DNA from: Diphasiastrum complanatum
Taxonomy: Eukaryota; Streptophyta; Lycopodiopsida; Lycopodiales; Lycopodiaceae
Assembly: GCA_029204225.1 (NCBI GenBank)
Contig: MU831853.1
Span: 1-64,000 of the forward strand
Reading direction: 5' to 3'
Length of the DNA stretch: 64,000 bases
The notes under the pieces are model-generated. The model was not told where the DNA came from. It saw only the letters and a program-made list of their open reading frames with translations, and did not search any database. Below, one piece after another: positions 11,391 to 62,488 of this stretch. Positions within the stretch are counted from its first letter, which is position 1. Each line of letters opens with the position of its first letter. Made by a program: the position numbers and the translations under genes.

Positions 11391-11440
11391 AGATAGAATC
11401 TTGATAATCTGAAGACTTGGTCTTCGGAGATCTAACAGAT

Positions 11441-12547
11441 ATGGGTAGTCTCAATTCTCAACCATTTTCAGTTCATGCTGCAATTATGCTTTGGCTGATC
11501 TTCAATCCGTTCTTTTACCAGTGGAAGCCAATTAATTATCTCACACAAGCACTCCTCATCTCGTCCGGCGCTGAATTCTCCACCTTGCTGCAAAATGCAG
11601 CTATTAAAAACTTGGACGATGCAGCAATCTCTACTGGTATCACATTGCAATTCCAGAAGAGGAAACCCATGTCACTGGTTCCGCCTTCACCTTTGATCCT
11701 GCCGTACCACAACGGACCAGTGCTTTCCGGTCCATCTCCCATCAACGTCTATCTGATCTTCTATGGCACATTCAGCCAGTCGCAAAAACAAATCATCCGA
11801 TCATTCATCCACTCTTTCAATGGTCCCAAGGACAACGCAATCCCGACAATCTCCAGCTGGTGGTCGCTCACAAACGCATACACTGATTTCAGCGGAGCTT
11901 CGGTGTCCCAGAATGTAACGATTGGAGGAGAAACAAGCCATAATGCTGAGTCATTTGGCAAAGAGCTGAGCAATAATGATATTCAAAAAATTGTTCTCAA
12001 TAGCATGAAACTATATCCACAAGTCAATCCGAATTCCATCTTTCTCGTGCTCACAGCTGCTGATGTATCAGTCCATGGTTTCTGCCAGGACCTTTGTGGG
12101 CAGCACCTCTATACATTTCCTTCGCAAACTAACGCGCATCAGCTGATTCCTTTCGCATGGGTCGGCAATTCAGCTTCTCAATGCCCAGGCTTCTGCGCCT
12201 GGCCTTTTGCTAAGCCGCAGTTCGGACCTAACACACCTCCATTGCTGCCTCCCAACGGAGATGTCGGCATAGATGGAATGATCATCAGCATAGCTAAGAT
12301 TTTAGTGGGCACTGCAACGGATCCTTACGGGACAGCTTACTACCAGGGAGATGCCTCGGCAGGCCTTGAGGCAGCGGGTGCCTGTACAGGAACCTTTGGC
12401 GATGGCGCATATCCAGGCGATCCCGGAATGCTTCTAAAGAACAACAAAACTGGAGCAAGCTTTAATGTCTATGGTTTTTTAAATAGACAGTTCTTGGTTC
12501 CATGGATCTGGAATCCAGTGGCTCTCGCCTGTGCTGGCCAAGCATGA
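11441..12547 (+). CDS. EXORDIUM/PHI-1-like secreted protein
   Basis: An intact, intronless 368-residue ORF of the phosphate-induced protein 1 (PHI-1/EXORDIUM) family, whose members are extracellular plant proteins linked to brassinosteroid- and carbon-dependent growth. The first ATG after an in-frame TAA (11405) is 11441. The N-terminus has a hydrophobic core (AAIMLWLIFNPFF, residues 13-25) that fits a secretion signal. Family hallmarks follow in order: LPYHNGPVLSG (about 88), NVYLIFYGTFSQSQ (about 102), ISSWWSLTNAY, VTIGGETSH, VLTAADVSVHGFC, FAWVGNSASQCPGFCAWPF, GTATDPYGTAYYQGD, GACTGTFGDGAYPGDPG, and the cysteine-containing C-terminus VALACAGQA. Length is slightly above the usual 310-330 residues, mostly from the N-terminal region. 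GA/GT repeats lie just upstream. Biochemical activity in the family is not established. Confidence 0.95.
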   Translation: MGSLNSQPFSVHAAIMLWLIFNPFFYQWKPINYLTQALLISSGAEFSTLLQNAAIKNLDDAAISTGITLQFQKRKPMSLVPPSPLILPYHNGPVLSGPSPINVYLIFYGTFSQSQKQIIRSFIHSFNGPKDNAIPTISSWWSLTNAYTDFSGASVSQNVTIGGETSHNAESFGKELSNNDIQKIVLNSMKLYPQVNPNSIFLVLTAADVSVHGFCQDLCGQHLYTFPSQTNAHQLIPFAWVGNSASQCPGFCAWPFAKPQFGPNTPPLLPPNGDVGIDGMIISIAKILVGTATDPYGTAYYQGDASAGLEAAGACTGTFGDGAYPGDPGMLLKNNKTGASFNVYGFLNRQFLVPWIWNPVALACAGQA

Positions 12548-29746: not shown

Positions 29747-30790
29747 ATTAGGGAAAATTTGGGCTCAAAATGGGCCCTTAAGAAATTTGACTTTAGAGAG
29801 AGGTTAGGTAGAGAGAGAATGGAAATCGATACTATTTGGTTGCCGTTTTTTGAGTTTATGGTACTACCCGCATTATAACTACTGTGGTTAAAACTAGCTC
29901 TAACTTCAGGCATTAATTAGTTAAGCATGCTTGTAATAATAGCCATACATTTGTCATTTAATCCGGGGCTATAAACGTCCACCAATAATAATATTATAGC
30001 ATGGTATCTACGCCTAGAGGTAATGAATGGTCTATCAGTAAAAAATAATGGCCACCAAATTCCGTACCTAGAGATATGATACGTTCACAGAAACTTATGA
30101 GGACAATCATTTCTGAAGCTCCGCTCTACATAAGCACTAAAATAACAATAAAGAATACTTTACGTTTGAATTTCACGCCCGAACATCGATTCAGCACGCG
30201 CATAGATCATTCGAATACCCTTCAGTCATGGCGGGTCACGTGGCGTGCCCCTTGGCCTAGGAGGCAGTGGTGGTGGTGGATTTCCGTGGTGACCTCCTTG
30301 CATTGGGACACCTCTGTGCTGTTTGCTTGATGCGAGCCATTCGCGGACGCAATATTGGATTAGCGCGCGCGTAGCAAATCAACAGTTGTAGAATGTAGGT
30401 CGGGCGCGCCGAACCGATATTAGACAGAAAAGTCGGAAAGTAGGCTATATCGGATGGGCGCGTGGGAGTCCGGAACAGGAATATCACGACTGGGTCGGAC
30501 ACACTGAACTAATATTGAGAAATGATAACTTTTGAAAGACAGCTCAGATTTAGACGATTACAATGCCATTAGAAAGCCCTCAACGAGAGCTTTTCAAAGG
30601 CACCAAACATGACCTAGTTCTGAGCTACCGTTATAGAGATATTATTAGTCAAAGTTTTGGGCAGTAAAATAGTCAACGATCAACCTAATATCGGATCGGC
30701 ACGCGGTTGACCAGTTTGACCTAGTCAGACACTAAGGGCACATGCCAATCCGATATTAGGGTTTTTTTTTTTTTTTTGCAACGGCACCAT
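29747..30790 (-). repeat. Second arm of the H3-tail repeat family
   Basis: Its outer end ATTAGGGAAAATTTGGG...GGGCCCTT (29747-29779) matches the inverted end at 15186-15218 at 28 of 33 positions. Farther in, motifs of the form AATCCGATATTAG next to GCGCGC-rich runs recur at about 30355, 30410, 30450, 30690 and 30750. A T tract of about 15 lies near 30763-30777. No transposase or RT domain was seen. Confidence 0.55.
30257..30340 (-). CDS. Short ORF with histone H3-tail-like N-terminus (copy 2)
   Basis: A 27-codon stretch from an ATG at 30340: MARIKQTAQRC, then a basic stretch with SPRKSTTTT, ending at TAG. The frame is open upstream without another ATG. It resembles the H3 tail in its opening and has a PRK(S/T)-like motif later. 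Same family as 14749-14823; translation is unproven. Confidence 0.4.
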   Translation of the reverse strand: MARIKQTAQRCPNARRSPRKSTTTTAS

Positions 30791-42412: not shown

Positions 42413-42751
42413 CACACAGTTTGATGACAGTGGTGTAAATGGACATGTCAAGCTTGGAGACAATTCTTCTTATGACATCAAAGGTCGAGGTACAGTGAGA
42501 GTACATTTACCTTTAGGGAATATAGGAGAAATTAAGAATGTTCTCTATGTTCCAGGTTTAAAGAAGAATTTACTTTCAGTTTTTGCTATCGCTAAACAAA
42601 ACATGAAAGTTGAGTTTGATGATCAGAGACAAAAACATAGGTTACAAAGTTGTGGTCAAAGGATCTTTGGAAGGTCGACTTTACAAACTTGATGCGTCTA
42701 CATCGGATCATCAGGTTTGTGCAGCTTCTGATAGCATGGAGAGCAGGATGT
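42413..42751 (+). pseudogene. Copia M protease/pre-integrase fragment
   Basis: Plus-strand copia sequence: GHVKLGDNSSYDIKGRGTVR, GEIKNVLYVPGLKKNLLSV, VEFDDQRQ and, in another frame, GRLYKLDAS. It resumes at 46233 after the gypsy L insertion, but the HHCC segment is missing, so some target DNA was lost at the left junction. Confidence 0.85.
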
Positions 42752-43092
42752 GAAACATCTCATAAGCAAGACTTAACCCTAGAAAACAGAAAAGAGAGCT
42801 GAAAGAGACTAAAGAGGAGAGAGATCAATATTATAGCTCAGATTCCCTACTTATAGCCTACAGGAAGCCCTAAAAGGAAGCTTCCAGTGGCAAGGGCCCA
42901 ACTGGGAGGGATAATAGTGTGCCCTCCAAGGAGGCCCCCACTCTCCATTAATATGTCCAAATATAAGGCCCAAAGCCAACCATATAGCCTAAGTGTCAAT
43001 AATGATTTAAAAAAGGGCCCAAGGCTTGCTTATGCATAAAGTAAAATAAATGTAAATGGATGTGGCGAATGTAATGAGCCGAGTCCTTAACT
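42752..43092 (-). repeat. Gypsy L 3' LTR (truncated)
   Basis: Matches 45870-46232 closely (CATAAGCAAGACTTAACCCT, GGAAGCTTCCAGTGGCAAGG, GGATGTGGCGAATGTAATGA). About 40 bases present at the start of the sister LTR are missing here, replaced at the junction with copia M. Confidence 0.85.
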
Positions 43093-43279
43093 CTCCCCGA
43101 CACAAAGATAAGACCCAACTACCGAAAAAAAAGTGGATCAAATAGCGGCAAGCCCTGCTGGATCAACATCTAGAACAACATCTGATGTAGAGGAATCAAC
43201 AAGTGCAGCAAGAGCACGAGCCTGATCTGCAAGTGATGGTGTATGATGAAAGACATCAGTAGGCTCCCATGTGAGCAGT

Positions 43280-45281
43280 CTTATGTTCGTCAGAAGGGTG
43301 CATCCTAATTTGGTAATATCCGAAACGAAGATCTATCTTAGAAAAGATCTTAGAGGTACCGAGCTGGTCAAAGAGGTCATCCATGTGCGGAATAGGGTAC
43401 AAATTACGGATAGTCAATTTATTTAAAGCACAGTAATCAATACAAAGATGTTTGGTACCATCTTTCTTACTAACAAGGAGGCACCAAAAGAGCTATGACT
43501 AGGGACAATGAGACCCTGATCTAACAAGGTAGTAATGTGGAGCTCAAGCTCATCACGCTCAGATCGAGACATACGATAAGGGGGATGGGAAGGAGGAGCA
43601 GAACCAAGATGCAAGTCAATATGGTGGTTCACGTCATGTAATGGTGGTAGCGTCGTAGGTTCTGATAAGACAAAAGCATACTAATGTAATAAGTCAGAGA
43701 TCACCTGAGGAACACCTGCCGGAATAGAAACTGGAGGAACTGGTACTGCCCGCTGAACACATGAGCCTTCGACAGGCTGCAAATAAACTGTTTCCCAGTG
43801 ATCAACTGGAAGTCTCCCTGAGAATCAATGCCAATAAGTGAGTGTGTAACTGCACCATGTATAAATGTTAGTGTCTGCTGAGTCAAGTCCAGTGTAACGG
43901 CCCCAAGAGATGCAAACCAATCAGCACCAAGGATAAGATCAATAATATAAAGATCTGTCTGTCCAGAGAAATCTCCAATGCGGTATGGTAAACGCTGAAA
44001 CATTTGAGAACTAGGAAAGAGTGTGAACTGGCAACCTCAATTGTGAGAGGTTGTGGAGCAGGAACAGGTGAAGCACAGATCTGACTGGTGATATAACTGC
44101 TGATAAAAGAATGAGTGTTGCCGGTATCAACTGAAGCAATATACTCACGACCAGTAATGCGTACACGTAACTGAATGGAGCGAGGACCAGGACGCCCTGT
44201 CCAAGTAGCATAGGCAAGCTGAGCATGGCAAGTAGTAGGAAGTAAATCAGTGGAAGGCTCAGGAGATAGGTCAGGCTCATCAGAAATACGAATGTAGATA
44301 TCGGAATCATCTGGATTAGTGCCCTCATGGTTAAAAACAACAGTAGTAGTGGGGAGTGGCTGACGACAATCACGGGCAAAATGGTCAGGACTCCTACAAC
44401 GAAAGCAAAGACGCTTCTGCTGAAGGTCAACGAACTCTGCAGACGTGTAACGTGGGATAAAAGCAGGACAAGGAGACGAAGGGACAATGGAAGGAGCCGG
44501 AACAGAAAGGGAACGTGTAGAGGTGGACGTAGCAGGAAAAGATGAAGCAGAAGGACGGGGTTGGGAGAAGTGGGAAGGAAGGATGTTAGAGTACTTGTGC
44601 TGTAAAGTACTGGCAAGAGACATCACCTCAACAAGTGTGGGGGGACGGAAGGAAGAAACATCATAACGTAAGGCACCACGAAGCCCAGCAATGTAACGAG
44701 AAATAAGCTCAGTGGGCTGTAGATCTGTGAAAAGATAAGAAAACTCCATAAACTGATTTGTATAGGAAGCAAGATCACTGGTCTGAGTGAGACTACGACT
44801 TGAATCATGTTGGCGGTTGAGCCACTGAGGATCAATCATAGCAGGACGGAGAGCAGCCAACTGGATCTTCTGAGGATCAGTCTTAGGGTAAATCTGAAAA
44901 TAAGTGTCAAGCTTAGCAAACCAATTCTCTAATAAGTTCTTGTCAGAGGAACCGGAATAGGTAGCAAGTACCCTATCACGAAAATCCTGAGCAAAGTGTG
45001 GTTCAGGAACTGGGGGACGTGGAAAGAAACCAGGAGGTGGGGTAGGAGAAATGAACTGTCCACCACCAGGCTGACTAGCAGAAGAAGGTGGAAATCCAAA
45101 TGGAGGGGGAGTCCCAAATGAAGGATAAACAGGAGCTTTACCAGGACCATGAGGCTGTAAAGAATCAATCTGTGATTGCATAGTGGCTGGAAATTTTGCC
45201 AAGTATTGGGGCCAAATGGGGTGCTGGACAGCCACCAAGTAGTGCTGCAAGAGATGCTGGAAAAAAATGCTTCAAGTAGGC
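43280..45281 (-). pseudogene. Gypsy L gag-protease with RT start
   Basis: A minus-strand Ty3/gypsy reading frame. The frame opens after a TGA near 45281 and runs about 450 codons to 43883 without an evident ATG at its head. It has a proline-rich N-terminus (GFPPSSASQPGGGQF), a Gag core (DRVLATYSGSSDKNLLENWF; LISRYIAGLRGALRYDV), a zinc knuckle CFRCRSPDHFARDC (about 44375-44416) and aspartic protease IASVDTGNTHSFISS (about 44110). After shifts, RT begins with HPPYRMSRSERDELELHITT and [17 protein letters not shown] (about 43480-43590), and only the first RT block ([16 protein letters not shown]) survives to about 43400. Integrase and RNase H are absent, although both LTRs remain. Confidence 0.87.
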
Positions 45282-45818
45282 TGAAAAAACTGCGAATGAG
45301 GGTGGAGATGGGCGTTGAACAACCAATTTTTTTTTTTTGGGTAGCAAACAGAGGCGAAACGAAGTAAAAATTGGAGGGGGATGGGCGCTGGACAGCCCGC
45401 AAACAAGGTGTGAAAAATGGCTGCAAACGGAGACAAAAACGGACGAAAGTGACAAGTATGAAGGGGCTGGACAGCCTGCAAACAAAAGTGAAGAGAGAGC
45501 TGAAAATGGAAGGAGAAACGGACGAAAGAGATGAGGGAATTGGGCACTGGACAAGCTAGATTTGGGTGTCGGAAATAATCTGCCAGAATTTTTATTTATT
45601 TATTTATTTTTGGCCGCCAAATTTAGTGAAAGTACTTCCACTAACTGTCCGCTAAAGCTTCGCCAAGGAAAATGCTTTGATGGGTGCTGGTCCTTGTCCA
45701 AACTGTGATGAGTGTTGCTGAAGCAAAGAGATGAAAGCCCTCAACAAAGAGAGAAAAAAAAAATCAGCAAGGAAAATGGGCGCCCAATCAGAAAATCAGA
45801 TTCAACAATCAGGAAAGT

Positions 45819-45830
45819 GCTCTGATACCA
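45819..45830 (-). promoter_or_regulatory. Primer binding site of gypsy L
   Basis: The minus strand reads TGGTATCAGAGC directly after the LTR end, an initiator tRNA-Met PBS. Confidence 0.85.
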
Positions 45831-46232
45831 AGTTAAGAATGCAACCACAACTGATCTAGAGCTAACCTATGAAAGCATTTCGTAAGCAAGACTTAACCCT
45901 AGAAAGCAGGAAAGAGAACTTAAAGAGACTAAAGAGGAGAGAGATCAATATCATAGCTGAATAACAAATGACACAGATTCCCTACTTATAGCCTAAGGAA
46001 GCCCTAAAAGGAAGCTTCCAGTGGCAAGGGCCCAACTGGGAGGGATAATAGTGCGCCCTCCAAGAAGGCCTCCACTCTCCTGTAATATGTCCAAATGTCC
46101 AAATAAGGCCCAAGGCCAACCATATAGCCTAAGTGTCAATAATGAATAAAAAAAGGGCCCAAGGCCTGCTCATGCATAAAGTGAAGTAAATGTAAATGGA
46201 TGTGGCGAATGTAATGAGCCGAGTCCATAACT
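45831..46232 (-). repeat. Gypsy L 5' LTR
   Basis: 402 bp, bounded by AGTTA on the left and TAACT on the right. These are perfect inverted ends but not the canonical TG...CA. The PBS lies directly inside, and copia M integrase resumes directly outside at 46233. Confidence 0.82.
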
Positions 46233-47945: not shown

Positions 47946-48662
47946 GCGCGAGTCTAGAATGAAACAGAGGCAGTTTGGTCGCTTGGAGGAAACAGGTTAG
48001 GCAACCTCAAAAAAAGCATGAGTTGTAATGAAAGGAAGGAGCATGAAGCCAAATTGGCCCCCTCACAACCTCGTGCGTGCTTCTAAGGAAAAGTGCATTT
48101 AGCTCTTGCATATTTTTAGGAGCACTCAACAAATTGGTACAACGTTGTCACTATAGAATATTGGAATTGGAAAAATTGCAAACATGTGCTTCAAGAAGAG
48201 TTTACTCCACCTGATTTTGAAATGAGAGTAAGAGCTTGAAGACAAACAAAGGGTTCACTACAGGCTTACTTGGACAAGTTTATGCGAAATGCATTACCTA
48301 TTGTAGAGCATGTTGCCATGGACTAGACGGTCTATAGATAGTGAATACACAAGCTATGACTTTGAAAGTAATTGCCCAATACCTTTGCTTGAAATGGGCT
48401 TAAGGGATTGAATGAATTACGAGGACACTCTGGATCCATCGACATAGAGGAACTTAACTCGGTTAAAATAGAACAATAAGTAATATGGGTTGTTTTCCTC
48501 AAATAATGAACTTTGGTGCTCAAAGTTCGGGTGGGACAACTATGGCACAAAAAAGGAACATGCAAACTAGAGTAGCAATAAGTCATAGCAACAACCCACA
48601 CATGGCAAGCAACTTTCTTTGTGTTGCTTCAGTTGCCATTAGCCAAGTCATTCCTGGCAGAC
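47946..48662 (+). pseudogene. Gypsy gag scrap
   Basis: Decayed Ty3/gypsy Gag: LQEEFTPPDFEMRVRA and QTKGSLQAYLDKFMRNALPI (about 48190-48310), with stops. The rest carries no motif. The TRIM element is inserted at its right end. Confidence 0.65.
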
Positions 48663-48667
48663 ATGCA
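48663..48667. other. Left target-site duplication of the TRIM
   Basis: ATGCA, repeated at 49052-49056 immediately outside the opposite LTR end. Confidence 0.85.
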
Positions 48668-48811
48668 TGTTAGAAATCCATAAATCATAATATGAATGGA
48701 CAGACTAGGATTCGAACCCAGGACCTCCCTCATACCGGATGGGATGCTCTACCACTAAGCTATCCGCCCTGTTCGATAGTTCTCTCTAGAGTGTGGATTG
48801 ATATTCCAACA
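48668..48811 (-). repeat. TRIM 3' LTR
   Basis: Minus strand TGTTGGAATATCAATCC... to ...GGATTTCTAACA; canonical TG...CA. Pairs with 48908-49051. Confidence 0.93.
48698..48769 (-). ncRNA. tRNA-like sequence in TRIM 3' LTR
   Basis: On the minus strand 72 bases fold as a tRNA: acceptor GGGCGGA/TCTGTCC (seven pairs, two of them G-U), D arm GCTT-AGTGGTA-GAGC, T arm CTGGG-TTCGAAT-CCTAG. A box TAGCTTAGTGG and B box GTTCGAATC both fit consensus. The anticodon arm is degenerate (TCCC/GGGA closing an enlarged loop), so a decodable tRNA is unlikely. Confidence 0.8.
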
Positions 48812-48820
48812 CCCCCCCTC
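48812..48820 (-). other. TRIM polypurine tract
   Basis: Minus strand GAGGGGGGG directly before the 3' LTR. Confidence 0.85.
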
Positions 48821-48894
48821 AAGCCACACTTGGTTGGGGTCCTAGTTGTCACCTGCCCCACAACTTGGGCCACCTAACCATGGCTTTGACACTT

Positions 48895-48907
48895 GGCTCT
48901 GATACCA
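48895..48907 (-). promoter_or_regulatory. TRIM primer binding site
   Basis: Minus strand TGGTATCAGAGCC with no gap after the 5' LTR end; complementary to initiator tRNA-Met. Confidence 0.92.
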
Positions 48908-49051
48908 TGTTAGAAATCCATAAATCATAATATGGATGGACAGACTAGGATTCGAACCCAGGACCTCCCTCATACCGGATGGGATGCTCTACCACTGAGC
49001 TATTCATCCTGTTTGATGGTTCTCTCTAGAGTGTGGATTGATATTCCAACA
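48908..49051 (-). repeat. TRIM 5' LTR
   Basis: 144 bp, same ends as 48668-48811, seven transitions apart. Followed on the plus-strand right by ATGCA. Confidence 0.93.
48938..49009 (-). ncRNA. tRNA-like sequence in TRIM 5' LTR
   Basis: Counterpart of 48698-48769. A box TAGCTCAGTGG and B box GTTCGAATC are intact. The acceptor 5' strand (GGATGAA) has one mismatch against TCTGTCC. As the promoter copy of the element, it could start Pol III transcription. No TTTT run lies downstream on this strand inside the element; the first is outside, at about 48546-48551. Confidence 0.8.
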
Positions 49052-49056
49052 ATGCA
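49052..49056. other. Right target-site duplication of the TRIM
   Basis: ATGCA, matching 48663-48667. Confidence 0.85.
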
Positions 49057-49440
49057 AACACCCTCTGAGCTAGCAAGGCCCTTGATGATGCAAAAAAGAA
49101 GAGTTGAGATTGGACAATAGAAGATTATGAGGATGATCAAGATTGAAGCCTTACCCCTCTTCTCATGTTTCGAGCAATCCTTTGCCCGTTGACCCTTTTC
49201 CATGCATAAGAAGCAAAGTCCTTTTGAATCAGCTTTTGTTAACACCCTGTGACCCAACTTCCTCTTTTTTTTTTGGAAAGATGAAGTGTAAGATTTGACT
49301 TGTTTCTTACCACCTTTCTTGGGCAAAGTTGTTGGTATCTTGATTTTCCCTTTATTAATATGCGTTGGTGCTATTGTGTCATCATAAGTCTCAGCAAACA
49401 TAATATCATCATCTAGGGTTTTTAAATTATTACATCTAAC
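49057..49440 (-). pseudogene. Gypsy gag zinc-knuckle fragment
   Basis: Minus-strand ORF (49000-49401 at its longest) with KGKIKIPTTLPKKGGKKQVK and a knuckle-like CFLCMEKGQRAKDC in which the histidine is replaced by glutamine. It is a Gag remnant of unknown gypsy lineage, open for about 110 codons. Confidence 0.6.
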
Positions 49441-54110: not shown

Positions 54111-57100
54111 ATGGCGCCTGGAACATTTTATTTGGATGTCCCTGAATCTCCTTCAGAAAATGAAGTTGACTCAACCATTCTAGATGCTGAAACAATTGTT
54201 TCATCTAAAGCTCCTTTGCCACTGTCAGGAGGAAAGTCTGGGACGTCCCCGACTAGCAGTGTCCATGAGCTTCTGGAATGTCCTGTATGCACAAATTCAA
54301 TGTACCCTCCTATTCATCAGGTTTTTTCTGCTCTTTTTTGCATGTCTTTTTTTGGGTGTTATGGTAGTTACAGCTTGCAATGGAGGACACGTGAAGAATA
54401 TTGTTCATCCTGCTTCTTGTGAATTTTCTTCCTACCAGGTACAGAGCTTGCTGACTATTTTCCTTTACCATACTAGGTCTAGCTTGTATGTAATGTCAGA
54501 TTTACATATGTTGTCAGTAACCTTTGAAACACTTTATTTAAGCACAGGTCCTAGAAAATTTTCTGTGCTTGTGTATTCCGTTGCTTCAACAATTTACAAA
54601 GAAGGATCGTCAGAAATAAGCTTCAGTATGCATAAGTAAGATAAAAGGTATGAACATGAATAAGTGGAGCATGTGTAGTGCAGTAAATTGCAGACCCTCC
54701 TAAAATAAGGACTACATATGAGTCTTCTAGAAACAATTCAATTACCAGAGTGAACTGTCTAATGAGTCAAATGACTTCTAGGAGCTTTGTGGAGCTCCTT
54801 TATACTGTCCAGGGACCTCTAAGAGATTCGCCTAGGACAGGAATAATCAGGGACCCAAGGACCTGCCAAAACTCTAACCCAAGTCGGTTAATGATCATGA
54901 CTTAGAATTCCAAGTAAGAACTCAAAGTTATGCCCCTAATGACAGAAACATTGTTCTCAATATTGGGCCAAATATAGAGAGTAATGTCAAAGAGCAATGC
55001 TGAACAATCCACCAAAATGTAAACCTTTCTCAGCCTTTTGGCTAAGATCAAGAGTAGTTTCTGGATTCTGTTGTTCTTATCAGTTTAATAGCTGATACGA
55101 GACCCAATGGGTCTCACACTATTGATCTAACTTGTTTTCAGGTTTGCAGGCTCGTTAGGTAGTTTGATACCCGAGCTCGCCTGTGTGGTTTTGTATTGCA
55201 CTACCTCAAAGCCCGACACAGCCAATCCCTCCTTGAGGCAACCCCTTCAAATCAAACTATGTACATTGGCATTTATGTGCTCACTAAGTTTGAAAGATCA
55301 TAGGACTGAATGGTCGCAGCAAGAGTTTGAGCCTCTCGTCCTGTAACAACCAAGTATGAGCAAATGCATTACTACACTCCTATGTGCCGTCATCAATAGG
55401 CCAACCAAATATCTTATCTAGCACCATTGCTGATTATTTTGAACCTGGAGTAGCTGGCATGAGAGGAAACTACTCTGGATGATCTGGGCATCTTAGGAGC
55501 ATAAGCCTCATTAGACCCAATAGCAACACAAAGCAAACACGCATGGAAAGGATCACATTCTCCAGTAGTAGCAAGTAGCATGGGATAATGAGCAACATGA
55601 CACATATGTCGTAGAATACAATAAAAAGACCATAGTAGCGTGGAATATGTTTGTCTGAGACTAGATTTGGACAAACTTTTTTCATGCAAGATGAACCATA
55701 GAAAAATTTCATGTCTCTAAATTCTACATAGCTAGTGTCTTCTTTATCAGTCTTATATTGCTACTAGATTCTTTGTAAGCGATTGTGCATGAATATTGAG
55801 ATTTCGCGCGTCAGAAAGGAGGCCATGCAAATTGGTAGGTGTATCATTAAGTTACATTTGGAATGCATGGTATGACAAGACAATATTGTATATGGAGGAC
55901 AAAAGATCCTCATCAACTCTTCTTAACCTTGCTTGCAATTATGGATTTAGGCGAACTATGTGACTTGAAGATATCGGAAATGAATATGCATGCAAATTGC
56001 TATTTTGGCATAACAGTTCATATAGTCTATTAACTATAACTATTCTACATTTTAAACATTATAACTAAAAGTAACTGGCCAAGGCATGACAACTAATTTT
56101 TTGCCAAAAATGAGAGGTGACTCGTATTTGTGTCCTAATAGTCGATCTTGCTTGAATTGACCTCTCATGGTTGATTATTCCTAGATACACAAGCTTTGTC
56201 CTCATAATCATTGGAAGACGAAAATGAAGAAATCAATAATGTGCAATATTGTATGGTTGAAGTATCCAAGTCTGCAAGGGTTTACAAAATGTAGCTCGAC
56301 AGGATCTCGGTTGTCTACTTCGATATTTACAATGCCTCTAGCATCTTGTTTCTTCATAAAATTTGTTGCTTTTGCATTATTCTATTACTCCAAATTGTTG
56401 AATAACCAATCCTCTTATAGGCACCAATGCATTGATAAGAATGGTGAATTCTGCATTCATTTTTAAAAATACCAAAAAGGTCATCTTTGTTATAGACAAA
56501 CATAGACCTAACAGATCCAAAATTATCATCAAACATAATCTGCCTCTAGACAATGTTCGTTCTCAATAATCATCAAGAGATTGTGATTTTTCTTCAAAGT
56601 TTTTGAAGATAGCCTTCCTTGCAAAACAATACATTTATTTTTGCTTTTCAGTAGCAACGAAGTTGCAAACATCGAGATGCATGAAACTTTGTAATTCCAG
56701 GATCTCAAGAATTACATCAGAAATAAAATCTCCAAAAGGGATCCGCACTGTCAACTGTATTATCTGAACCCACCTGATTGATTAGCAGCCAAGCATGATC
56801 GTCTATCAATTGCATGAGGTGATGAAGGAAATTTTCCATTGTACTTTGAGCTATCAAGGATTAGGAAAGGTTAACGTACTTATGAAAGGATGATATGTCG
56901 ATCATCCAAATATCTTGAACACAAACTTTTCCTGAATGATTGTCTATCAATTGCATTCTATGATCTAGATGTTGGCTATTTGAAAGTCTAAGGGACTTTT
57001 GACTTCCAAAATCACTGTGAAACTTCATTGTCATTGCATGAAGTGATGAAGGAAATTCTCCATTGTACTTTGAGCTCTCAAGGATTAGGAGAGGTTAGCG

Positions 57101-58539
57101 TATTTATGAAAGCATGATATGTCGATCATCTATATATCTTCAACACAAACTTTTCCTGAATGATGGAATTAACTTCGATTCTAGAGGCATAATCAAGAAT
57201 CTCCATGTTGAAATGGAAATAATAGTTTTACTGAAATCATTTTCTAGTTCATAGTAAATAGTATCATCCAGTAGGCTTGATTCAACATCATAATGAGAAA
57301 TCTCAGAGTAGGCTTTTTGTTCCTCTAAAAGGTTTCTGTTTCTCACCAATATAATAATCACCTTCATCAACTTGGCTGATTATGCACTGTTGATCAGATC
57401 AAAGGATTAGCCTCTATTGTACCTAATATAATCCATGATCCATGTGCTGATGAAGATTTTCACCAAAAATTTGGAATGTAAGATAGATAAATTAATCTGC
57501 CCAAAGATCTTCGTTATCCTTTTGATGGCAATGTGCTTTGGATTTCTCTGGAGAAATTGATCGATTTTTTTCCTCTTTGATATAATCATATGCAACTTGT
57601 CAAAAAAATTTCATGTCGTTGTTGGTTGGTAGCATTGACCTTCTTTCTATTCCTTTGCAGTGTCCCAATGGTCATACTTTATGTTCAACTTGCAAGGTGA
57701 GGGTACACAATCGATGTCCCACTTGCAGATATGAACTTGGAAACATCAGATGCTTGGCTTTAGAGAAAGTTGCTGAGTCTTTGGAACTTCCTTGCCGATA
57801 CCATAGTCTTGGTTGTCCTGATATATTTCCTTACTACAGTAAACTGGAGCATGAAGCTCAATGCAGTTTTAGGCCTTATAACTGTCCTTATGCTGGTTCA
57901 GAATGTTCGGTAACAGGTGATATTGTGACTTTGGTGGCACATCTAAGAGATGACCACAAAGTTGACATGCACAATGGCTGCACTTTCAACCATCGCTATG
58001 TTAAATCAAATCCGCAAGAGGTTGAAAATGCAACATGGATGTTAACAGTAAGTGTTTCTAATTCATAGCATGGAGCCAGCTGTTACTCAATTTCCCCTTT
58101 GCATTGTTGAACCTTTACCTTGCAATGAACCTCAGGTTGAAAATAGTCATTTAAAGTCACTATTAGGCTTAAAATTGTGTGATTTTTCTGCTGATTGTTG
58201 AGTGTTTCTTGATTACAGGTCTTTAACTGTTTTGGACAACATTTCTGCCTTCATTTTGAAGCATTTCAACTTGGCATGGCACCAGTATACATGGCATTTC
58301 TAAGGTTCATGGGTGACGACAATGAAGCAAAGAACTTTAGCTATAGTCTGGAAGTTGGTGCAAATGGTCGTAAATTGGTTTGGCAAGGTGTTCCAAGAAG
58401 TATCCGTGACAGTCATAAGAAGGTGAGGGACAGCCATGATGGGCTCATTATCCAAAGAAACATGGCTCTTTTTTTCTCAGGTGGTGATCGAAAGGAACTG
58501 AAGCTGAGAGTTACCGGACGTATATGGAAAGAGCAATAA
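54111..58539 (+). CDS. SINA-type RING E3 ubiquitin ligase (three exons)
   Basis: Seven-in-absentia (SINA/SIAH) E3 ligase, which ubiquitinates target proteins and in plants acts in development, hormone and stress signalling. Exon 1 is 54111-54320 (70 codons), exon 2 is 57661-58047 (129) and exon 3 is 58219-58539 (106 plus TAA), giving 305 residues, the normal family length. All introns are phase 0 with GT...AG borders (CAG/GTTTTT and TTTGCAG; ACA/GTAAGT and TTACAG). Domains: variable N-terminus; C3HC4 RING from LLECPVCTN (about 55) across the exon 1/2 joint through CPNGHTLCSTC and CPTCR; SINA zinc-finger region (LPCRYHSLGC, CPYAGSECSVTGD, LVAHLRDDHKVDMH); then the TRAF-like C-terminal domain (FCLHFEAFQLGMAPVYMAF, SYSLEVGANGRKL, ELKLRVTGRIWKEQ). 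No disabling changes. Intron 1 is 3.3 kb and holds a U2-like sequence. Confidence 0.95.
55021..55220 (+). ncRNA. U2 snRNA-like sequence, probably a pseudogene
   Basis: The 5' part matches U2 snRNA: ACCTTTCTCAGCCTTTTGGC, TAAGATCAAG, then GTTCTTATCAGTTTAATA and GCTGATA. The branch-point recognition word GTAGTA reads GTAGTT, and about ten extra bases (including a TTCTG duplication) follow it. Downstream, U2-type structure is still visible: a GAGACCC/GGGTCTC hairpin, a CAGGC...GCCTG stem, and a GTGTGG...CCGACAC stem around ATTGCACTACCTC. No plant snRNA upstream element (RTCCCACATCG) was seen within 70 bases upstream. It is in sense orientation in SINA intron 1. Confidence 0.75.
56798..57164. repeat. 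Two-copy repeat in SINA intron 1
   Basis: About 130 bases at 56810-56942 (TGAGGTGATGAAGGAAATT... to ...CTTTTCCTGAATGATTG) recur at 57038-57164 with about 10% difference, in direct orientation, separated by about 95 bases. Confidence 0.85.
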
Positions 58540-60086
58540 ACTTTCAAGACTAAATTCACTTATCACATCTAAGCGGGTTTTTTTTTGTTCTAGTTCGATT
58601 GCATTGTAGTTATGGTTGGCTCTTGATCAATGGTCCTGACTCTTGTTTAGCCCAAGATTCATGGATTAACAAGGATTAGTGGATAACTCGTCATTCTTTA
58701 TGAAAACTCAGACTTAGAAGAACAGTTGAGATATGTATGATATTATTCTACCAGTACGATGATATTTTATGCTCCAAGGGTTTCGTGGATCAACAGGAAT
58801 GTAACTGTTTTAAAAGTATTTCAGACCTGGAGAATTTTTTCTTTGTCTTAAAGTAATCCAGTCTTGCAAGTTTATTTGTAGTATCTGTTTTCTTCGTTTT
58901 TGTTTGATCTGTTCTTAATGCATGGGATGAATTTTAAGGTGGCCTTTATGGCCTTAAATTATGGCGAGGCCATTGGGCTGAGCCATGATATTATGGTCCA
59001 GATGGTCTCACCATACTTCTACAGTTTGGTGAGCCAATGGAAAGTGATCTGTTTGTATGGGGAAACGAATTCTCTATTGGCCTTATCCACTAGGGAAGCC
59101 GGCTTTAAAAATATGGCAAGGCCGTTACACTGAGCCATGATAATATGATCTAGATGGCCTCACCATAGTTTTCTGATCTGGCTGACCCAGTGGAAAGGTC
59201 ACTGGATATCCATTCCCTCACGTAAAGGATGAGCGATGCTGGTCCCTGTTTCAAAGGCTGGTGCAATTGATGGCTTAATAAAATTTTATTTTTGCCAAGT
59301 TTCCATGCCTTTTACTGGCACAAGCGTCTTATGAGGCTGGGCATGGGAGTACTATGAGGTGTTTTGCATTTATTGCAGGTGTTAATTTTGGTAAGTAAGA
59401 GAGTTCCATATTCAGGATAGTTTTATGGCCTACAGTCCATCAAAGTAGGTTTCTTCATCACAAGTTTTGAATTCACAACCTGGGTAACATTTGCAGCTTA
59501 TTGTGAGCAATCCCACTTCATGAACAGCATAGCCTTCTCGTAATGAACAGGGCCCAGCCAAGAAGCAAAATCTTGTGAAGGAATGGGCAGGCCCTTGCAA
59601 CCTGGAATTTAGGAGGCTTACGGCTGTGCTTTACATTTAATACACTGCCATGCACCAGCCACATCATGCTAAATTGAGTACTTGCCTTATTGCATTTGTC
59701 TGGTTAATCATAGTAAGGACACACTTAAATCTGTAGAATCAAATGAGGGATCGACTCATTTGATGATCTGGTAAGCTAACAAGTCAGGATCTCAAGTAAT
59801 TGCAAGTATCGAAATCTTGCTGCCAAGTTCCATATAGCCAACACGTCACTGGAATAGTTTCAAATCACTGAATTTTCTTTTGTGTTTAGTATCTAGTACA
59901 AGTTCTTTCATTGCGAACTATGGGACTTTGGAGTTGTCATTCTTTGCATTCATGCATGACCTATTTGCAAGGGTTACAACTCCCCCCACTTGCAGTTACA
60001 CAGTTGCATCCTTGATATTGAGGCAAACCAAGGGAAAACATGATTCTACCTGCAGTTTACACTATTGGGTTTCATTTACGGTTAAA
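58540..60086. other. SINA 3' UTR and spacer
   Basis: Includes a degenerate direct duplication (GAGCCATGATATTATGGTCC at about 58980 and GAGCCATGATAATATGATCT at about 59133, each followed by AGATGG and TCACCATA). No further gene recognised. Confidence 0.5.
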
Positions 60087-60644
60087 TGTTTAGTTAGTGA
60101 ATAAAATTGGGTTTTCCCTCAAATTTAGATGGTTCCCACTCTTTTTTAAATTTGAATAATTAGGAAGGCAAAAATGGACCAATAGGATTCAGAGGCCAGG
60201 ATCCTCCTCTCTACTATAAAAAGAGACCAACTCGAGTTCCTGCACATGTTTTCATTTCTTCATTTCAATAAAGCAGATTGGTTCTCTTGTGAAATGGATT
60301 TATGAATGTCCTTGATCTCTTTCACTTTTCCTCCATCTCTCATGCTTTATTTGTGTTTTGTTAATTGTTGGATTTGATTGTTATTGGGATTGCATGTTAT
60401 TATACTTTCTATGAGGGAGAAAGGGAGAGAGAGAAAGAGTAAGCTATCTTGTTGTGGATCTAGTGTTAATGCTTAGGGTTAGTGGATGTTAGATTTAGAT
60501 GTGAATCTTCCATTCATGCTGAAATCTGAACTATACTATCGCTCTCATGAGAACGAATCTATGTGTGACAACTAACTTCATATCTTTGATGCTAGATTGA
60601 TTAGATCTTGGGTTGAGGTTAGACAAGGAAAGAAATCCACTACA
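60087..60644 (+). repeat. Gypsy Q LTR, first copy
   Basis: Starts TGTTTAGTTAGTG, ends CCACTACA. A TATA box CTACTATAAAAAGAG lies near 60212 and an AATAAA near 60267. Followed by a gypsy PBS. Confidence 0.82.
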
Positions 60645-60647
60645 ATT

Positions 60648-60667
60648 TTGGCGTTGTTGTCGGGGAG
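60648..60667 (+). promoter_or_regulatory. Gypsy Q primer binding site, first copy
   Basis: TTGGCGTTGTTGTCGGGGAG-type sequence, the Tat/Athila-like PBS with one change from TGGCGTCGTTGTCGGGGA. Confidence 0.75.
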
Positions 60668-61077
60668 TTACACCGATTTTTCAGTTTGCAGCATGTTTGT
60701 TGAATGGTTAGCTTGCATTAGACATCTTGCCGTTGCATGAAGAGTGTTAGATCTGCATTTAGGGTTAGTTTGGGAGTGATTTTTGCTTGATTTGAGTGGA
60801 TTTGCTTGTCTGAAATCTAATCTGATTGTGGAACAGGAAAAGCTATTCAGATCACCAATCTTAAGATCCATTTGGATTTGAGATATCAGAAAAAACAACA
60901 AAAATCAGAGGGTTTGCAGATCGCAAGCCAACCTTGACCCTTGTTAATAAGTGAGAGGGATTTGGCACCCTGCGTGTGTAAGTCCAATTCGATGATCACA
61001 TAGAGATTTGATTAATTAGAAAGTCAATAAAAGGACTTTAGGCCTTTTGCAGGACTTTTAATGTCGTAGGGCCTGAA
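60668..61077 (+). other. Deleted internal region of gypsy Q
   Basis: The first 180 bases match the leader after the second LTR up to AAAAGCTAT (60846). The next 230 bases do not, and presumably come from the 3' internal region before the second LTR. No ORF of note. Confidence 0.55.
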
Positions 61078-61410
61078 TGTCAAGTTAGTGAATTAAATTG
61101 GGTTTTCCCTCCAATTTAGATGGTTCCTACTCTTTTTTAAATTTGAATAATTAGGAAGGCAAAAATGGACCAATAGGATTCAGAGGCCAGGGTCCTCCTC
61201 TCTACTATAAAAAGAGACCAACTCGAGTTCATGCACATGTTTTCATTTCTTCATTTCAATAAAGCAGATTGGTTCTCTTGTGAAATGGATTGATGAATGT
61301 CTTTGATCTCTATCACCTTTCCTCCATCTCTCATGCTTTATTTGTGTTTCGCTAATTGTTGGATTTGATTGTTATTGGGATTGCATGTTATTATACTTTC
61401 TATGAGGGAG

Positions 61411-61492
<82 letters not shown>

Positions 61493-61712
61493 TAAGCTAT
61501 CTTGTTGTGGATCTAGTGTTAGTGGATGTAGTGTTAATGCTTGGGGTTAATGGATGTTAGAATTAGATGTGAATCTTCCATTCATGGTGAAATCTGAACT
61601 ATACTATCGCTCTCATGGGAATGAATCTATGCGTGACAACTAACTTCATCTCTTTGATGCTAGATTGATTAGATCTTGGGTTGAGGTTAGGCAAGGAAAG
61701 AAATTCACTACA
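61078..61712 (+). repeat. Gypsy Q LTR, second copy
   Basis: TGTCAAGTTAGTG... to ...TTCACTACA. Same TATA and AATAAA positions as the first copy. Longer because of an expanded GA tract and a short GTGTTAGTGGATGTA duplication. A PBS-like TTGGCGTCGTTGTCAGGGAG follows. Confidence 0.82.
61415..61487. repeat. (GA)n microsatellite within an LTR
   Basis: About 36 GA units; the sister LTR has only a short imperfect run at about 60417-60440. Confidence 0.97.
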
Positions 61713-61904
61713 ATTTTGGCGTCGTTGTCAGGGAGTTACGCCAATTTTTCAGTTTGCAGCATGTTTGTTGGATGGTTAGCTTGCATTAGACATCTTGTCG
61801 TTCCATGAAGAGTGTTAGATCTGCATTTAGGGTTAATTTGGGAGTGATTTTTGCTTGATTTGAGTAGATTTGCTTGTCTGAAATCTAATCTGATTGTGGA
61901 ACAA

Positions 61905-62488
61905 GAAAAGCTATGCTCCTGGACCTGCTTCTTAGGAAGTCAATCCAATCATTGTTAGAAGAGCATCCCGTTTCGATCTACCCAAATACAATGGATTAAC
62001 AGATCCAGTTATATTTCTTCATAATTATACTGAATCTTGTGAAGTCTATGGCGAAATTTTTTCCCAAGATAAACTTCAGCTTTTTCCTATGGCCTTAACA
62101 GGCGCAGCACAAGATTGATACTATAATCAAGATGAAACTGAGCGTACGGATTGAGAGATTGTTAAACGAGCCCTTATCACACGGTCCAAAACTCAAAAGT
62201 TTATGGAAGACCCTTTTCTACTTTTAAGTAAAATTAAAATGGGAAATTGAAAAATGGTTCGAGATTACATTGAACGGGTAAAACGTCTCAGATTTGAGTG
62301 CGAACCTGAGCTGATTAACTAAAATGCCATGATTATGTGGTTTTTGTCAAGTTTACCTTAAAGGATCACAGAGTTGAAGAATGTCCAAATAAAAAAAAAT
62401 TTGTACCATTTTGTCATGACTGTGGTTATGGGCATTGCTACATTGAGAATCTTGTAACTCAGCTACAGAAGTTTCAATTTCTCTTGAG
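61905..62488 (+). pseudogene. Gypsy Q gag fragment
   Basis: Ty3/gypsy Gag with several stops: VRRASRFDLPKYNGLTDP, LQLFPMALTGAAQD, RDYIERVKRLRFECEP and a knuckle-like CHDCGYGHCYIE in a shifted frame near 62415. The last resembles the CX2CX3HX4C knuckle of gypsy P. It is cut at about 62488 by the G-family insertion. Confidence 0.8.

Follow-up and report, generated by a model that had tools for sequence, protein, structure and literature searches.

The locus at 48663-49056 of the window (the whole 64-kb stretch of DNA that was analysed) raises the question of whether a short LTR element without genes might have acquired its promoter from a tRNA, and whether a family of this kind has been described before. 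A complete LTR element of 384 bp is present at 48668-49051, with its sense strand on the minus strand and with LTR, internal region and LTR of 144, 96 and 144 bp (Table 1). The earlier note had claimed a complete TRIM with two 144-bp TG...CA LTRs and a 5-bp target site duplication (TSD), ATGCA, and both are borne out by the coordinates; the claimed primer-binding site (PBS) and G-rich polypurine tract (PPT) are likewise found where expected, TGGTATCAGAGCCA adjoining the 5' LTR and GAGGGGGGG adjoining the 3' LTR. The PBS fits the initiator tRNA-Met. Between the two LTRs there are 7 differences in 144 positions, and each of these is a transition (K2P 0.051). In the six frames of the element, the longest stop-free run is 67 codons (antisense, with a maximum of 48 in the sense frames), and the element therefore has no coding capacity to speak of.

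Table 1. Parts of the element and its surroundings, in window positions.
Feature	Positions	Strand	Remarks
5' LTR	48908-49051	-	144 bp, TG...CA ends
3' LTR	48668-48811	-	144 bp, TG...CA ends, 95% identical to 5' LTR
Internal region	48812-48907	-	96 bp; begins TGGTATCAGAGCCA, ends GAGGGGGGG
Target site duplication ATGCA, left on + strand	48663-48667	.	
Target site duplication ATGCA, right on + strand	49052-49056	.	
Primer-binding site (PBS) TGGTATCAGAGCCA	48894-48907	-	adjoins 5' LTR
Polypurine tract (PPT) GAGGGGGGG, G-rich	48812-48820	-	adjoins 3' LTR
A box TAGCTCAGTGG, 5' LTR	48992-49002	-	LTR position 50
B box GTTCGAATCC, 5' LTR	48948-48957	-	LTR position 95
tRNA-like sequence, 5' LTR	48937-49009	-	ARAGORN Thr-GGT, Rfam 44.0 bits
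tRNA-like sequence, 3' LTR	48697-48769	-	ARAGORN Thr-GGT, Rfam 48.6 bits
T6 run, first downstream, outside element	48549-48554	-	possible Pol III terminator in flank

A 73-base tRNA-Thr(GGT) was called by ARAGORN in each LTR, the two calls being 240 bp apart, and both exceed the gathering cutoff of 29 bits of the Rfam tRNA model RF00005, while no other tRNA match was listed elsewhere in the 64-kb window by the Rfam scan at E up to 1. Among dinucleotide shuffles, ARAGORN called a tRNA in 0 of 5000 for each LTR, and the same mode called both real LTRs (2/2) as a control; when only the shuffles of the 3' LTR were counted again, all 5000 of 5000 records had zero genes. The tRNA-like part starts at LTR position 43, and in both LTRs it contains an A box, TAGCT(C/T)AGTGG, at position 50 and the B box GTTCGAATCC at position 95, so that ARAGORN, Rfam and the shuffles agree with the tRNA-like sequence with A and B boxes that had been claimed for both LTRs. 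The claimed pairing of the arms stands in part: the acceptor stem has 7/7 pairs in the 3' LTR and 6/7 in the 5' LTR (one non-pair), but the anticodon arm, which had been described as unpaired, is degenerate rather than wholly unpaired, with four outer pairs followed by an A.A mismatch and a T.G pair in the ARAGORN fold. Good A and B boxes together with a degenerate anticodon arm in both LTRs form the pattern expected if the promoter alone matters, and, judging from the two LTRs of this one element, the tRNA-like part gives the impression of a decayed tRNA that has been retained because of its promoter boxes and not for decoding. Such LTRs can be mistaken for tRNA genes (here tRNA-Thr) by tRNA gene finders, as has been noted in other genomes by Kojima 2024 (PMC10886601).

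Two tRNA-model matches 240 bp apart are also what two tandem tRNA genes or nearby SINE copies would give in place of an LTR element. This explanation is very improbable, in that the repeated unit is the whole 144-bp TG...CA LTR and not the tRNA, the PBS and PPT adjoin the repeats, and the 5-bp TSD encloses all of these parts. LTRs, PBS and PPT are lacking in SINEs. Although tRNA-derived SINEs (SINE2) have a tRNA-like Pol III promoter in common with the element, and are further characterized by non-LTR retrotransposition, the element, unlike SINE2, possesses two LTRs, a PBS and a PPT within its 5-bp TSD.

The sense strand of the 384 bp contains no TTTT, as the earlier note had claimed, and the T run that it had pointed to downstream is the T6 first met at 48554. 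This absence is no more than composition would give, since 1739 of 2000 LTR-respecting shuffles of the element also lack TTTT; as a sign of selection it was therefore ruled out, but only 92/663 and 66/663 overlapping 384-base stretches of the window (two strands) are without TTTT. The same shuffles are in line with a TRIM of the usual type, driven by Pol II, whose tRNA-like stretch is carried along as a passenger without acting as a promoter; it might, for example, be an old SINE or tRNA gene that was inserted in one LTR and then copied to both. The degenerate anticodon arm and the mismatch in the acceptor of the 5' LTR would also suit a passenger. However, both LTRs have good A and B boxes despite the degenerate anticodon arm, a TATA[AT]A motif is absent from the element, and the start of the tRNA-like part at LTR position 43 leaves little space upstream for a Pol II promoter, which makes a passenger unlikely. 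The best reading is still the one originally proposed, a complete TRIM whose LTRs contain a tRNA-like promoter, presumably for Pol III, with promoter activity deduced from the boxes.

To trace the origin of the tRNA-like part, plasmids were searched by blastn (E up to 10); this yielded 61 records, of which 20 were listed, and in none did the match reach 80% of the query. The five top-ranked places, among the 20 listed of 61, cover 36-37% of the query at 74-75% identity, and four plasmid records outside these 20 belong to identity bands of at least 90%. A place in Curtobacterium (83.8% identity) has no annotated feature under the match, in an annotation table that contains no RNA genes. Moreover, a T-arm pattern matches two bacterial contigs, where ARAGORN calls a tRNA-Lys. 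Descent from one particular tRNA was considered on the basis of these plasmid and bacterial contig matches and set aside, and the matches were read as general tRNA conservation. Self-priming by the tRNA-like part is likewise unsupported, the complement of the PBS finding a best ungapped match of 10/18 in the 5' LTR copy. For the insert in the LTRs of Helenus elements, a tRNA-derived SINE (SINE2) has been proposed as the source (PMC10886601).

Helenus is the name given by Kojima 2024 (PMC10886601) to TRIMs with tRNA-derived sequence in their LTRs, which are placed together with Ajax and Cassandra in TRIMp3. The statement in the earlier note that no TRIM family with a tRNA-like LTR had been described thus does not hold, and the described families include one from a lycophyte. 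Helenus elements occur in fungi, animals and one plant, the lycophyte Selaginella moellendorffii, which is the sole plant in Table 1 of that study; they are 311-1263 bp long, TRIMs being under 1 kb, and are characterized by a box A TRGCY...YGG and a box B GGTTC in the LTRs and, in plants and fungi, by a 5-bp TSD (PMC10886601). Their Pol III transcription was inferred and stated to be unvalidated (PMC10886601). Helenus is also mentioned in a 2026 meeting report (PMC12859917). The element studied here has the same structural features, being short (384 bp) and non-coding (no stop-free run beyond 67 codons), with tRNA-derived sequence containing TRGCY...YGG and GGTTC in both LTRs, a PBS and a PPT between them, and ATGCA on both sides. 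It is therefore very likely a Helenus-type TRIM, that is, a small non-coding LTR retrotransposon whose LTRs have acquired a tRNA-derived Pol III promoter.

Helenus-1_SMo of Selaginella moellendorffii, with an LTR of 120 bp, an internal region of 85 bp and a 5-bp TSD (PMC10886601), resembles the present element in its tRNA-derived LTR with A and B boxes, its PBS and PPT, its 5-bp TSD and its lycophyte host, and is of similar size (LTR and internal region of 120 and 85 bp versus 144 and 96 bp). The host differs (Selaginella versus what is probably a clubmoss), and the likeness is one of description. No further plant case of the Helenus type appeared among the matches listed from the open-licence literature, and the element probably represents a second lycophyte Helenus-type family, which extends such elements beyond Selaginella, the sole plant in Kojima's table (PMC10886601), and provides an intact-looking copy as a possible test object for Pol III transcription of a TRIM. 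That both elements stem from one tRNA-carrying TRIM in the common ancestor of living lycophytes is doubtful. If this were true, a Pol III-driven LTR retrotransposon lineage would be hundreds of millions of years old and would form a counterpart to the Cassandra of ferns and seed plants, with which it would have its PBS in common.

Cassandra itself is a plant TRIM with the PBS TGGTATCAGAGC, whose LTRs are reported to contain 5S rRNA sequence as well as promoters and terminators (PMC7215508). The first 12 bases of the element's PBS TGGTATCAGAGCCA are identical to this PBS, and a Pol III promoter lies in the LTRs of Cassandra as it presumably does here. By the same source, the Cassandra LTR combines 5S rRNA with terminators, whereas the present LTR is tRNA-like, without a 5S match and without TTTT. 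The shared plan and PBS 12-mer might suggest that the element is a Cassandra with a 5S rRNA-derived LTR, but this is extremely improbable: no 5S family appears in the Rfam matches of the element, including a scan at E up to 0.1 of the 501 bases in which it lies, the element lacks the box A motif of Cassandra in its exact form (the one match in the window is at 29919), and 384 bp falls below the total length of 565-860 bp quoted for Cassandra (PMC10886601). In addition, Gao et al. 2016 (PMC4717578) reported short non-coding plant LTR elements, with TRIM families including ones of S. moellendorffii; these are also short and non-coding, and the main text contains no word beginning with tRNA.

Taking the element as a Helenus-type TRIM, a life cycle can be outlined from its sequence features. 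The element is presumably transcribed by Pol III, for which TFIIIC would bind both boxes in the 5' LTR, and transcription would start at a point, here taken as LTR position 35, that lies a few bases before the tRNA-like part. The transcript would extend across the internal region and 3' LTR as far as the T6 in the flank and would be ~464 nt long if started at position 35. The initiator tRNA-Met would prime minus-strand DNA at the PBS, and the strong-stop DNA would pair with the same R stretch within the 3' LTR; since this R stretch would be present twice in the transcript, first-strand transfer could proceed without a terminator inside the LTR. The plus strand would then be primed by the PPT. 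Because the element lacks coding capacity, it must rely on an autonomous element, possibly Copia, for its reverse transcriptase and integrase.

Retrotransposon domains, namely integrase, RVT_2, and copia-type gag and associated domains, were found by Pfam in 6 of 10 scanned ORFs of the window. The 12-base PBS TGGTATCAGAGC occurs at seven sites in the window including the element's own, two of the others (586 + and 24443 -) having all 14 bases in common with it. Since 5-bp TSDs, and the ability to use the same PBS, are also known from plant Gypsy elements, the choice of Copia rather than Gypsy is weakly founded. With the domains in 6/10 ORFs, the two 14-base PBS sites and the link of 5-bp TSDs to Copia in fungi (Kojima 2024, PMC10886601), Copia is a possible source of the enzymes. 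Scans of the 64-kb window did not reveal an autonomous partner whose LTR ends and PPT match those of the element. Helenus elements form multi-copy families with a consensus, whereas one copy was seen here, with neither a second copy of the element nor a solo LTR in the window; four exact-pattern scans of viral contigs, a collection ill suited to plant DNA, gave 0 matches. For one Copia ORF of the window, the named matches in a protein search, among 120 listed of 2978, came from the fern Adiantum and from seed plants, with identities of 36-52%, and no lycophyte was named among these 120.

When the element and one TSD copy are removed, one minus-strand frame of the empty site is open across the junction and meets a stop ~11 residues on. 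An ORF of the upstream flank, 49057-49401 (-), includes the stretch CFLCMEKGQRAKDC, which resembles a zinc knuckle; this ORF has no Pfam match, and its frame might perhaps be a degraded terminal part of a gag-like frame. Elsewhere in the window, an EXORDIUM-like ORF at 11417-12547 has as the best of its 120 listed matches (of 166), apart from the window's own record, a protein of Diphasiastrum complanatum, which belongs to the Lycopodiaceae, with 74% identity over 85% of the query; leaving out that record and further Diphasiastrum proteins, the remaining listed matches are at 55% identity or less. Judging from this one gene, the host would be a lycophyte of or near the Lycopodiaceae, probably a clubmoss, an assignment that the listed matches of the Copia ORF do not back. 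A U2 spliceosomal RNA match lies at 55022-55226 (+), with 103.7 bits in Rfam over the full model length. The ORF at 57613-58068 (+) has RING and Sina zinc-finger matches and probably belongs, by these domains, to a gene for a SINA-type E3 ubiquitin ligase. Long, partly nested repeats and Copia-type fragments lie within 1-30000 and 42750-46230, and a unit of ~1 kb is found in two copies at 60085-61914, which are 94-96% identical in the aligned pieces.
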